Shown here: positions 42,493 to 46,757 of the stretch, one piece after another | How the letters are laid out: each line of letters begins with the position of its first letter | How positions within the stretch are numbered: position 1 is the first letter of the stretch | Assembly (NCBI RefSeq): GCF_000215085.1 | Contig: NC_015589.1 | Location: forward strand, 1,984,001-2,048,000 | Length of the DNA stretch: 64,000 nucleotides | Source: Desulforamulus ruminis DSM 2154 | GTDB lineage: Bacteria > Bacillota > Desulfotomaculia > Desulfotomaculales > Desulfotomaculaceae | Reading direction: 5' to 3' | Position numbers and translations under genes: made by a program | The notes under the pieces: model-generated | Told to the model about the DNA's origin: nothing | What the model saw: the letters and a program-made list of their open reading frames with translations, nothing else | The model's database searches: none

Positions 42493-43302
42493 ATGAAAAA
42501 ATTATTGGCTGTTTTATGTCTGTTAGGATTACTATTGTTATCATCTGTACCTGCATTCGCAGGCACAGATACTGGTAAAGATGCCGAAGGTATTTTAACA
42601 AATTACCTGAATGCAATTGTTAATCAGAATGTTGATGAAATACTTACTTTAGTTATAGATGAGCGCTATTCGTCCGATGGTTCTCAAAAAGAAGAGTATA
42701 CCCATTTTCTTGAAGAAAAGAAGCTAATTGATTACAAAATTAAAAAAATGTCCCAAGAGTCACCGACTCAAATAAATTTCGAGACAATTTTAACATTTGA
42801 TAACGGAAGCATTGAAAGAGTACCCATTGTACTTAAAAATGATAAATCCTGGAAAGTTTTTATTAACGAAAAATCATTAGAAAAAAACTATGAAGTTATT
42901 CAAGAAGGGAATCAAAAAATAGTAACTAAGCCGCAAGAAATTTCACCACAAGCAACTACATTAGTATCTTGGAGTTTTACTAACCGAGGGGGTGGTGCCG
43001 TTTTCTATTCAAATAATTCATTCAATATTAGCGGATCAACCGCAACATTAGCAAGCGTAACCCAAACACACGATTATGTAAACTTAGGTTGGCCTGTTGG
43101 AATTACCTATGCCATTGTTAAAAAAGGAATTCTTGGAGATTCTATGTGGGGGCAAAGATATCTTAGTGGAAGCATATCAAATCCAGTAAGTGTAAATGTA
43201 TCGGGATCCGGCAGTTATACAGGTGCACAAGTAAGATTCACAACTGATATAGGTAATACAAGCAGTATGGGATACAGGGGATCTGGATCTCTCACCCAGT
43301 AA
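42493..43302 (+). CDS. Secreted protein of unknown function
   Basis: 269 aa. Signal peptide MKKLLAVLCLLGLLLLSSV with a cleavage site AFA|GT. The region at about residues 30-140 (DAEGILTNYLNAIVNQNVDEI) looks like an NTF2/lumazine-binding-type fold. The C-terminal half is Ser/Gly/Asn-rich beta-type sequence ending in GYRGSGSLTQ. AT-rich codon use matches the accessory island and not the flanking genes. CGGGAGGCG precedes the ATG. A decayed copy of its own 3' end follows it. Confidence 0.7.
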   Translation: MKKLLAVLCLLGLLLLSSVPAFAGTDTGKDAEGILTNYLNAIVNQNVDEILTLVIDERYSSDGSQKEEYTHFLEEKKLIDYKIKKMSQESPTQINFETILTFDNGSIERVPIVLKNDKSWKVFINEKSLEKNYEVIQEGNQKIVTKPQEISPQATTLVSWSFTNRGGGAVFYSNNSFNISGSTATLASVTQTHDYVNLGWPVGITYAIVKKGILGDSMWGQRYLSGSISNPVSVNVSGSGSYTGAQVRFTTDIGNTSSMGYRGSGSLTQ

Positions 43303-43389
43303 CGGGATCCAGAAGTTATATAGAAGCACAAATAAGATTCATACTGATGGATAATATAAGCAGTATGGGATCAAGGGATTCGGATATCT
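43203..43389 (+). repeat. Decayed tandem duplication of the secreted-protein gene 3' end
   Basis: The segment 43203-43290 (GGGATCCG...GGATCT) recurs as 43304-43389 with many substitutions and small indels, a 101-bp shift. Matching blocks include AGCAGTATGGGAT in both copies. The second copy lies after the stop codon and is non-coding, so a once longer repeat protein may have been cut by a stop. Confidence 0.75.
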
Positions 43390-43450: not shown

Positions 43451-43492
43451 GAACTGACACCGTTTTTTTAAATTGGTGTCAGTTCTGTTTTG
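43451..43492. terminator. Hairpin between the secreted-protein gene and the FtsW-like gene
   Basis: GAACTGACACC pairs perfectly with GGTGTCAGTTC around a T-rich loop. It is followed by TGTTTTG on the plus strand and lies between two convergent genes, so it can serve both. Confidence 0.6.
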
Positions 43493-43548: not shown

Positions 43549-44835
43549 TTATTCTATTGAAGTTAAAGAATGTATTTTTTCCCGTCGATAGACACTTAAG
43601 ATTAGGCCAACAATCGTTGAATAAAAGATTAATTGTACCCCACCATAACTTATAAATGGTAGTGGTATACCAACGTAAGGTAAAAGACCAATAGACATTA
43701 ACATGTTTATAAGGAGGGAGATTAAGAATATTGTAAAACCACCAATAACAATAAATTTCCCATAATGATGACGTGTTTTAATCGCAACCTGAACCATACG
43801 AACAGTGAAAAATAACAAAATTCCCGTTAATAATAGACCACCTCCCCATCCAAAAAAATAAGTAATATAAGGTAAAATAAGATCTGTATGTGCTTCTGGT
43901 AATCTAACTTGTTCATGAATATTTCCTTGACCTAACCAACCTGCTTTTGCTATCATCTCTCTTGAGATAGAACTATGATAGGCGAATGTATTCTTATATT
44001 GTTCAGGATGTAAGAAGGCTAAAAGTCTTTCCTGTTGGTATGGTGATGAGAGGAAAAATAATACTGTCGATAAAATAAGTCCAAATGCTGAAGTGCTCCA
44101 TGTGAATTGCCGTCGTTGGCCACTGTTTATCTTCTCTATATTTATTAGAACAAGAATGGTAATGAAATAAATAATCGAATATAAATAATATCCGTTCCAT
44201 AAATAGAGTAACATGGGAAGCCAAAACAATAAGTGAAGTATAATTATATGGTATTTATTCCTATGTTGTAGAATGCTTGACCATGAAATATAAAACAGTA
44301 GTAGCGAAAACATATAATCAATCTTAATGTATCCGATATGCCACATCTTTTTTCCTTGAAAATCCAAGCCAATCATTCCAATCCAAAGCATCATCACTAC
44401 TGAACTTATATAAAGAAAAAAACCTAACTTTTCTAGCTTTCGATAATCATAAAACATTAAACTGATAATAATAATCATTGCTATAAGACTGAATATTACC
44501 TTCTTCATAAACAATCCTTCAAATATAAAAGATAAGGTATACATTGGAACTAAGCTAATACCTATAATGGTAGTAACTAGAAAAATGAGTGCCCAGTCAA
44601 TCCTCGGGCGATGTAGCTGGTTCATCTCTTTTCCGAATGTAATAGGATTCCCCATTTGATTGATTGTTTTTTTATCTGCTTCTTCTTTAGTGAGTCCATC
44701 TCTTTGATACGATTGGCTACGACTTTCGATATGATTAATGATCTCATACTCAACTAAGTCTTGAGCTTCTTTTGATTTTATTTGTGCTTTAACTTTGTCA
44801 ATAAAAGATTGTAGTAGAGGATGTTTTTCGTTCAT
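43549..44835 (-). CDS. FtsW/RodA/SpoVE-family membrane protein with N-terminal HAAS-like domain
   Basis: 428 aa. The first ~75 residues are soluble and helical (ending GNPITFGKEMNQLHRPRID), resembling the small HAAS/DUF1700-type domain found next to PadR regulators. About ten helices follow, with FtsW-family landmarks HPEQY near the centre, SREMIAKAGWLGQG, AHTDLILPYI and GIPLPFISYGG. FtsW/RodA proteins are SEDS glycosyltransferases; here the usual partner PBP is absent. It overlaps padR by one base. Low GC and an ECF sigma/PadR pairing point to a transferred, Bacillus-like module. Confidence 0.8.
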   Translation of the reverse strand: MNEKHPLLQSFIDKVKAQIKSKEAQDLVEYEIINHIESRSQSYQRDGLTKEEADKKTINQMGNPITFGKEMNQLHRPRIDWALIFLVTTIIGISLVPMYTLSFIFEGLFMKKVIFSLIAMIIIISLMFYDYRKLEKLGFFLYISSVVMMLWIGMIGLDFQGKKMWHIGYIKIDYMFSLLLFYISWSSILQHRNKYHIIILHLLFWLPMLLYLWNGYYLYSIIYFITILVLINIEKINSGQRRQFTWSTSAFGLILSTVLFFLSSPYQQERLLAFLHPEQYKNTFAYHSSISREMIAKAGWLGQGNIHEQVRLPEAHTDLILPYITYFFGWGGGLLLTGILLFFTVRMVQVAIKTRHHYGKFIVIGGFTIFLISLLINMLMSIGLLPYVGIPLPFISYGGVQLIFYSTIVGLILSVYRREKIHSLTSIE

Positions 44836-45266
44836 TATGCAGGCCCTCCTTCAAACCTCACCCTGGATATCAATGCAATTTTTTCTTTTTTATTCGCCAG
44901 CGAAACAATCCATCTTCCTTTAGATGTTAGTGAATAATATTTACAATTTTTATTATTAATTTTTTTCCACTCGGAACAAAGAATACCCTTGTTCTCAAGT
45001 CGATGTAGGAACGTATATAAACCACATTCCTGTTCTTTAAAGGTGCAATCACCTTTTTCTTGTAGAACATTGAGGATTTCAAAACCTGTCATAAACCGCC
45101 CGTGGAGTGTATGCAATAGAAGTAAAATAATCCCATCCCGATTTAGTTTCTCTTTTTTCGTTTTGATTGTTTCATTAACTGCTTTGCGCCTATCTTCAGA
45201 GAAAACAAAATTTTTAAATACATTGTTATTTAAATTCTCTTTTAATCCATTTAGCCTATGTTCCAT
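44835..45266 (-). CDS. PadR-family transcriptional regulator
   Basis: 143 aa. The wing-helix PadR core has LNRDGIILLLLHTLHGRFM, FEILNVLQEKG and the basic wing CGLYTFLHRLENKG, then KYYSLTSKGRWIVSL. The first 40 residues are an extra basic helical arm. PadR members usually repress the adjacent membrane gene. Lies between an ECF sigma factor and an FtsW-like gene in one minus-strand operon. Confidence 0.82.
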   Translation of the reverse strand: MEHRLNGLKENLNNNVFKNFVFSEDRRKAVNETIKTKKEKLNRDGIILLLLHTLHGRFMTGFEILNVLQEKGDCTFKEQECGLYTFLHRLENKGILCSEWKKINNKNCKYYSLTSKGRWIVSLANKKEKIALISRVRFEGGPA

Positions 45267-45268
45267 TT

Positions 45269-45814
45269 TTAATCCTCCTGGTATAAGATCTCTTTTAGTA
45301 ATTGTCTTGCTCGTTTTAAACGTGTTTTCACTGTATTTTCATTTACCTTGAGTGCTTGGCTAATTTCTTTTATTGAAAAATCTTCATAATAATATAAGTA
45401 AATGACTTCTCTATATTTGATTTTAAGCTGAAATACTGCTTCAACTAACTCCTCATCCTCATCTTTTTTAATAACTTCTTCGTCCACTTGATGGTTCGAA
45501 AATAAAAGTAGTTCAGTTATTTTGTCGTTAACGGTAACTTTACGATGGTGCCAGCTTTTCAAATAATCTTTACAATGATTACTAGCAATCCGATAAAGCC
45601 ATGTTTTTACGTTTGCTTGCTGTTTGAAAGAATCTAAATGCCTAAAACACTTGATAAAAATCTCCTGAGCTAAGTCTTCGGCTTGAGATAGGTCTTTAAC
45701 ATATGTATAGGCCAATTGAAGTATGTCTTTTCCATATTGAATCATTATAAAATCAAGTGTTTCTTCTTTTTCTTTATCCGTTTCATATGTAATAAGTAAA
45801 CCTGTTTCCTCCAC
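45269..45814 (-). CDS. ECF sigma factor
   Basis: 181 aa. Region 2 has DLSQAEDLAQEIFIKCFRH and VKTWLYRIASNHCKDYL; region 4 has YREVIYLYYYEDFSIKEI and NENTVKTRLKRARQLLKE. GTG start with AAAGGGGTGATG upstream. No classical anti-sigma factor with a zinc motif is present; the HAAS-FtsW protein two genes downstream is the only membrane protein in the operon and may take that part. Confidence 0.88.
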   Translation of the reverse strand: MEETGLLITYETDKEKEETLDFIMIQYGKDILQLAYTYVKDLSQAEDLAQEIFIKCFRHLDSFKQQANVKTWLYRIASNHCKDYLKSWHHRKVTVNDKITELLLFSNHQVDEEVIKKDEDEELVEAVFQLKIKYREVIYLYYYEDFSIKEISQALKVNENTVKTRLKRARQLLKEILYQED

Positions 45815-45875
45815 GCTTCATCACCCCTTTTTGCATTCATACAATTAGACGACCCTCAAAGTCAGATGGTTTTAT

Positions 45876-46757
45876 TGACCCCCGGAAAAGATGCACACAT
45901 AAAGGAGTAAGATAAAATGAGCGAACAAAAGGATATCAAAACGAAAATAAACGGTGACAGCCAAGCACAAAGCTAGTTTAGTCCTGGACATTATCAAAGG
46001 CAATACCACTGTCGCCCAGGCAGCAAGGGACTATGATTTAACCATCATTGGGGTAGCCGATGCCATGGCCGGGATGGAAAATCAACTGAAGGCAAGACCC
46101 AAGGATATAGCTCCAACAGTACGAATCAGAGATTAAAGAATTACGGTCGAAAGTTGGGGAGTTGGTGCTGCAAAATGATGTTCTAAAAAAGCTCTCCCGC
46201 CTACCGGGATCTGGGTCCAACGAATAAAGAGCTTGCGGGCGGTATACCAGAAAAAGGGCATTCTTATTCTTACAACTAAGATCTGCAAATGGCTAAAATC
46301 TCCCGCCGTACTTTTTACTACAGGTCTGTCCGTAAGCCAAAGAAAGCGGATGAAGCTCTAACCGAGCAAATCCGTCAGTTAATTCAAGCCTTTTCTACCT
46401 GCGGCTATCGCCGTTTGATAGTATTTAGAAGAAATCTTCTAAATGAAGGGTTGGCAGGTCAGAAAGAGCCTCTGAGGGACCTCGAGTAAAATCGAAGCGT
46501 TCATCCAGTCCGTTTAGAAACCGTCGCTGGGCTACAGATATGGCCATGATTTGGTGTGGGAAAGACCATGGTATCATATTGCCATCATCATTGACTGTGC
46601 CAGCCGGGAGATATAGGGAATGCCAAAGAAGCTCATGCCACTTAGAAAGAAACTCTTATTCAACGCTTTGGCCATGTGGGGTCATGTGCCAATCACTGGT
46701 CTTCGTAGTGAGTACATATGGTAGTTATGAGCCATCTTCGGACTTTAGGGAATAAAG
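45876..46757 (+). pseudogene. Decayed IS3-family transposase
   Basis: A left end TGACCCCCGG (45876-45885) is followed by orfA-like sequence (KASLVLDIIKGNTTVAQAAR, then a coiled region IKELRSKVGELVLQNDVLKK) interrupted by a frameshift and a stop near 46226. An orfB start follows (MAKISRRTFYYRSVRKP) and fragments RRWATDMAMIW and AIIIDCASREI of the DDE domain in different frames. No right inverted repeat is visible. The element cannot be active. It separates the ECF module from the sensor genes. Confidence 0.75.

Follow-up and report, generated by a model that had tools for sequence, protein, structure and literature searches.

Operon layout and family assignment

The window, i.e. the whole 64,000-nucleotide stretch of Desulforamulus ruminis DSM 2154 analysed here, carries on its minus strand, from 45814 down to 43549, three genes encoding an ECF σ factor, a PadR regulator and a SEDS protein with a HAAS-like N-terminus (Table 1). 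The genes follow each other in this order on one strand; 2 nt separate the σ and PadR genes, and the PadR and SEDS genes overlap by 1 nt (TAATG). An operon of this composition had been proposed in the original prediction and was borne out to the exact coordinate.

The Pfam domains Sigma70_r2 (7e-17) and r4_2 (7e-16) were recognized in the σ factor, which also lies above the curated sigma C cut-off of NCBIfam (NF006930, 234.4 bits vs 198). The PadR protein exceeds the Pfam gathering cut-off (PF03551, 4e-11, 43.1 bits vs 27) and falls just below the LstR cut-off (NF006931, 108.4 bits vs 112, over positions 1-123 of 135), NF006931 being the NCBIfam family that also contains LstR of Listeria. Judged by these matches, the window PadR is a divergent relative of LstR and is hence named LstR-like. 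In the third protein, residues 16-72 match the NCBIfam permease prefix domain 1 (NF038403), so that the predicted regulatory-type N-terminal domain was recovered in part: the score of 28.5 bits is under the cut-off of 30, and the Pfam HAAS model gave no match on the window copy.

The trio is a copy of a known type of operon, described in Listeria as lmo0423 (sigC), lstR and lmo0421 (Hauf 2019, PMC6624303), and the trio as such is thus already in print. The two operons share the three genes, their order and the promoter core, and Listeria LstR likewise carries the N-terminal extension described below. Identity between the window and Listeria proteins amounts to 49-50% for the σ factor, 36-39% for PadR and 35% for the SEDS protein. 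Unlike the Listeria operon, the window copy lies outside Bacilli, its σ factor falls with that of a single Bacilli genome and away from the remaining 40 copies, its PadR and SEDS genes share 1 nt instead of 4, and its promoter borders on an IS remnant.

Table 1. Features of the operon and its surroundings in the window
Feature	Position	Strand	Basis and remarks
ECF σ factor, sigma-C family	45269-45814	-	181 aa, GTG start; NF006930 234 bits
PadR-family repressor, LstR-like	44835-45266	-	143 aa; PF03551 above cut-off; NF006931 108 bits
HAAS-SEDS membrane protein, Lmo0421-like	43549-44835	-	428 aa; PF01098 1.3e-37
PadR N-terminal extension, aa 1-38, proposed anti-σ segment	45153-45266	-	profile matches
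PadR winged helix, aa 50-118	44913-45119	-	Pfam range
HAAS-like cytosolic domain, aa 16-72, GxP motif (GNP, aa 62-64)	44620-44790	-	NF038403 28.5 bits
SEDS (FtsW/RodA) domain, aa 84-419	43579-44586	-	PF01098
Asp318, aligned with the HTD-motif Asp of RodA/FtsW	43882-43884	-	alignment to RodA/FtsW-type proteins of this genome
Predicted sigma-C-type autoregulatory promoter AAACC-N16-CGTCTA	45846-45872	-	-10 end 31 nt 5' of σ start
Inverted repeat 3' of the operon, possible two-way terminator	43451-43485	.	16-nt arms, 88% complementary
Degenerate IS remnant just upstream of the promoter	45880-46750	+	broken ORFs, weak HTH_21 match, E 0.03

Promoter and flanking DNA

The promoter was kept upstream of all 31 σ genes that were aligned (alignment judged by eye), with the -35 element reading AAACT in two copies and CAACC in one. 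Of 11 further loci, a pattern search detected it in ten, the spacer measuring 15 or 16. The exact pattern occurs only twice in the window's genome, the operon's own copy included, vs seven times for a reversed control. A wider regulon of the σ factor in its own genome is therefore without support, and the operon itself is the sole supported promoter target there. In Listeria, too, the operon is reported as the sole supported target of sigma C; the same study describes PsigC as dependent on sigC and strongly repressed by LstR, with a 77-fold rise without lstR, and reports that none of the antibiotics and disinfectants it tested induced the promoter (PMC6624303). When the divergent copies of the σ promoter were inspected by eye for a PadR operator, no palindrome stood out.

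The IS remnant ends only a few bases from the -35 element (45872-45885), where it seems to replace a T-rich stretch that precedes -35 in other copies. Its earlier identification holds as far as the broken ORFs go; the single HTH_21 match is weak, and no second full copy was present in the genome. The operon has a GC content of 32% vs 46% for the window, in line with the AT-rich composition noted earlier, but AT-rich sequence already sets in near 41.7 kb, i.e. outside the operon. Flanking repeats, also part of the original prediction, were not convincing as mobile-element ends, be they inverted or direct: what we found is an incomplete tandem duplication, about 100 nt long (43198-43377), at the end of a neighbouring secreted-type gene (42493-43302), its second copy falling past the stop codon, and not a pair of operon-flanking ends.

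Distribution and origin of the trio

A scan with an LstR alignment, one genome per species, returned 29 loci. In 28 of them, all in Bacillales, the full trio is present in the same order, which is more than chance would give and goes against the refuting outcome named in the original prediction, a trio not conserved elsewhere; the 29th locus has no trio. Two more trios came from plasmid-collection records of Niallia and Listeria, and among 250 genomes of the class of one trio genome (G372) the 11 best-scoring σ loci (L095-L105) were trios without exception (11/11). G372 and the other trio genomes belong to the same phylum as the window's genome and not to the same class. Within the window's own order, a σ factor above the NF006930 cut-off was confined to one of 113 genomes, namely that of the window itself. 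A full-length LstR match was obtained in 3 of 398 genomes of the phylum, and NF006931 matches in other genomes lacking the σ factor reached at most 68 bits. One scan of viral contigs with the σ alignment gave no relative, nor did a scan of genome contigs with the window SEDS protein alone.

The window σ factor is 46-59% identical to its Bacillales homologues, and the SEDS protein about 27-38% identical to the Bacillales trio members. The σ tree pairs the window copy with that of G510, a Bacilli genome (97/82), separately from the remaining 40. This grouping, the restriction of the σ factor to one genome of the order and the low GC content together favour transfer, as had been suggested earlier, and the operon was probably acquired from Bacilli.

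A conserved N-terminal extension of σ-linked PadR proteins

PadR proteins encoded next to the σ gene begin with about 38 well-conserved residues (MEHRLNGLKENLNNNVFKNFVFSEDRRKAVNETIK in the window) that are absent from the PadRs of σ-less PadR/HAAS pairs. With a profile of this extension, a score of at least 10 bits was reached by 42 of 42 σ-linked PadRs, 16 of which had built the profile, vs none of 24 σ-less ones. The extension is among the best-conserved parts of LstR, the divergent window copy included.

When the 398 genomes of the phylum were searched with the extension profile, the three trio PadRs came first, followed by two matches that both lie in one genome, G277 (E 1.6e-4 and 5.4e-4). 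Both cover the N-terminus of a membrane-spanning protein whose gene overlaps an ECF σ gene, which is the classic anti-σ layout. The remaining eight matches were weaker, partial and not adjoining a σ gene, and in the 113 genomes of the order two other weak matches were obtained, neither of them adjoining one. Searched on its own against Pfam and NCBIfam, the extension returned only the LstR model itself plus weak unrelated matches.

We therefore turned to 90 loci of related σ factors, of which 30 were returned by the search and 60 picked from the places listed, mostly one per genome. A membrane-type protein is encoded next in 75 of them and LstR in 11; left out of the 75 were L110, with no downstream ORF, and L170, L176 and L183, with short ORFs of 99-114 aa. 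Over their first 60 residues, 23 of the 75 membrane-type proteins scored at least 10 bits with the extension profile (52 stayed below), vs 1 of 3750 shuffles, and 14 scored at least 15 bits, vs no shuffle. Among 723 control ORFs six reached 10 bits, three of which follow a σ gene, the other three having been fetched by the profile itself. The homology was strongest in a comparison by hhalign with the 22 proteins nearest on the σ tree, i.e. those whose σ factors share one half of the midpoint-rooted tree with the LstR-linked σ factors (probability 97%, E 1e-10, 38 gapless columns from the Met). For the 54 other membrane proteins the value was 89% (E 2e-6), while 18 shuffled sets gave at most 0.35%. 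Thus, in profile comparisons the extension has N-terminal homology to proteins encoded after related ECF σ factors, the property by which we propose it as an anti-σ segment.

Additionally, the independently built NCBI LstR model NF006931 matched the N-termini of six out of nine membrane proteins that had been chosen as high scorers, mostly via positions 1-43. The matches on the membrane proteins of L119, L127, L143, L129, L083 and L092 are weak and far below the cut-off, and hence no sign of a PadR; those of the homologous membrane proteins that were scanned also revealed no DNA-binding domain.

All 42 LstR-linked σ factors group in a single clade of the σ tree (100/98), to which none of the 78 others belongs. 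If the tree is rooted as drawn, the simplest history is a single swap from a membrane anti-σ to the LstR arrangement.

Altogether, the claim that the operon has neither an anti-σ nor a penicillin-binding partner stands for separate genes, but an anti-σ-like segment is located on the PadR. On the strength of its sequence, the anti-σ candidate in the operon is this segment of the PadR itself.

Structure predictions

In AlphaFold models of LstR alone (26 sequences) the winged helix was predicted with a pLDDT of about 85-92 and the extension with 52-65. When σ and LstR were modelled as one chain (34 sequences), an artificial construct with a 2-residue linker in which the σ stop codon was treated as a residue, the extension formed two helices with a pLDDT of about 78-84 over LstR residues 6-35. 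The pTM of the one-chain model (0.59) was no higher than that of LstR alone (0.60).

The σ part of the one-chain model resembles, across both domains, SigW of the SigW-RsiW complex (Z 15.8, 155 residues, 2.9 A), and also the σ factors of RpoE-NepR (Z 15.2) and CnrH-CnrY (Z 13.6). Foldseek TM-scores by target length were lower for σ factors in polymerase complexes (0.31-0.45 vs 0.73-0.76), but they were low as well for the anti-σ-bound SigE-RseA, AlgU-MucA and SigK (0.40-0.46), so that the compact σ arrangement corresponds to one type of complex only. It may also be the default shape of the modelled σ factor. We take the one-chain model as supportive of a contact between σ and LstR, not as proof of it.

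The HAAS-SEDS protein as probable partner of the PadR

The Asp of the HTD motif and an aligned Trp are needed for the polymerase (catalytic) activity of RodA and FtsW proteins. The window protein combines the PF01098 match with this Asp, which is present in 31 of 33 trio members, the window included, and in 13 of 16 σ-less pairs; one gap in the Asp column belongs to L030, whose SEDS ORF is short (309 aa). The Trp that aligns with that of RodA occurs in 28 of 33 trio members and 5 of 16 σ-less pairs. With these residues retained, the SEDS protein looks like a working, constrained enzyme and not a mere anchor, although the Listeria version, Lmo0421, is reported as unable to replace the FtsW1 or RodA proteins (PMC6624303).

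A comparative study has put forward PadR and HAAS as signalling partners; it points to the GxP motif and already lists FtsW/RodA fusions (PMC11237479). As in the pairs described there, a PadR gene of the window lies beside a gene for a membrane protein with an N-terminal HAAS-like domain; unlike in them, a σ gene comes first and the PadR is longer by a segment at its N-terminus. In our set 32 of 33 trio members retain the GxP motif vs 4 of 16 σ-less pairs, which counts against a HAAS-PadR contact via GxP in the latter. HAAS-type N-termini adjoin the PadR in 22 of 24 σ-less PadR loci, and in five of these the membrane part differs. At L066, L067, L071, L073 and L075 the HAAS domain beside the PadR is fused to another, non-SEDS membrane part. 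Since HAAS thus sits beside PadR also where no σ gene is present, it is probably the partner of PadR rather than of σ.

A second, paralogous set of PadR, HAAS and SEDS in the window's genome has no σ gene (L001 25-1779; C1:826375-827964); in it, HAAS and SEDS are encoded by two ORFs with a 1-base overlap and the SEDS protein lacks the HTD Asp. Another σ-SEDS neighbourhood was seen on a Priestia plasmid (L024 644-5498), where two FtsW/RodA genes accompany an ECF σ gene followed by a gene for a DUF4030 protein.

LstR as a putative repressor and anti-σ factor

The gene order, the conserved promoter, the extension with its profile match and the single clade of LstR-linked σ factors are observed here, and we consider it fairly probable that the LstR-type PadR is repressor and anti-σ in one, linked to the membrane via the HAAS-SEDS protein. 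The winged helix of LstR would repress the operon, as reported for Listeria LstR (PMC6624303), and the N-terminal 38 or so residues, homologous to the cytosolic ends of single-span anti-σ-type proteins, would bind the σ factor and keep it off RNA polymerase. The HAAS domain of the SEDS protein would tie LstR to the membrane, and a disturbance of cell wall or membrane sensed by HAAS-SEDS would alter LstR so that both σ and promoter are freed. The freed σ factor would then drive its own conserved promoter and raise the level of the SEDS protein, which is probably a reserve or specialised peptidoglycan polymerase.

As to origin, we lean, with slightly less conviction, towards LstR-type PadRs being anti-σ factors that, in a single event, exchanged their membrane span and outer sensor for a DNA-binding winged helix; the product would both repress the promoter and withhold the σ factor, with sensing handed to a separate cell-wall enzyme, HAAS-SEDS. 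A parallel is offered by ECF265 σ factors with a single-span anti-σ, such as SigP-RsiP of Bacillus thuringiensis, in which the σ gene is likewise followed by a gene for a protein with a cytosolic N-terminus of similar length; an RsiP truncation of residues 1-53 without membrane span is described in these reports (PMC8092216, PMC6686233). Unlike RsiP, LstR has neither membrane span nor outer sensor, and a winged helix follows the segment instead.

The main difficulty comes from Listeria, where a triple mutant of the LstR helix-turn-helix with an intact N-terminus derepressed PsigC as fully as the deletion (PMC6624303). This counts against a free-standing anti-σ tail, which would be expected to keep some inhibition; either the mutant protein is unstable or σ inhibition needs promoter binding. 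The result would follow directly if LstR were solely a DNA-binding repressor, its extension being a relic of an anti-σ ancestor used for folding, dimerisation or operator choice, and sigma C had no anti-σ and were set by the amount made. A review indeed places the PadR-associated ECF265 σ factors, a label that we take from this source and not from ECF classification models, among those without an anti-σ and with unknown mechanism (PMC8999054). We nevertheless regard this explanation as rather unlikely, because the extension is so well conserved even in the divergent window copy, and because a mere relic would not need to be tied to the σ gene as strictly as found here.

The Listeria mutant would also be accounted for if the LstR N-terminus gripped sigma C within RNA polymerase at its one repressed promoter, DNA binding and σ contact both being needed, and the very small regulon suggested by the pattern counts in the window's own genome fits such an arrangement. 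The homologous membrane proteins scanned are devoid of a DNA-binding domain, however, and the ancestral job was thus probably sequestration, which makes this explanation improbable. The earlier proposal was that, with no anti-σ gene in the operon, the σ factor may be held by the HAAS/FtsW protein. In its favour, the operon encodes no other membrane protein, and the examined trios have this one, but with HAAS-type proteins beside σ-less PadRs and the anti-σ-like segment on the PadR we give it very little credence.

The trio, the HAAS-PadR pair and the association of ECF265 with PadR are in print, whereas an anti-σ reading of LstR was not found in the literature searched: no paper joined LstR with an anti-σ, and a search by title and start of abstract gave none on an anti-σ role of a PadR. 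A known Listeria stress operon recurs in a distant relative, and the anti-σ-like tail of its repressor could explain how the σ factor stays off. If LstR is an anti-σ, the gap left for PadR-associated ECF265 σ factors in the review (PMC8999054) would close for this branch, the published Listeria operon with its unexplained logic would gain a test that is concrete and easy, and a new design of anti-σ factors would be defined, with a repressor domain in place of the sensor.

Among the related loci, four (L023 5506-6489, L108 2018-3025, L125 551-1573 and L126 201-1556) have an ECF σ gene followed by one for a LytR-CpsA-Psr cell-wall enzyme with an anti-σ-like N-terminus and a membrane span, possibly another anti-σ fusion.
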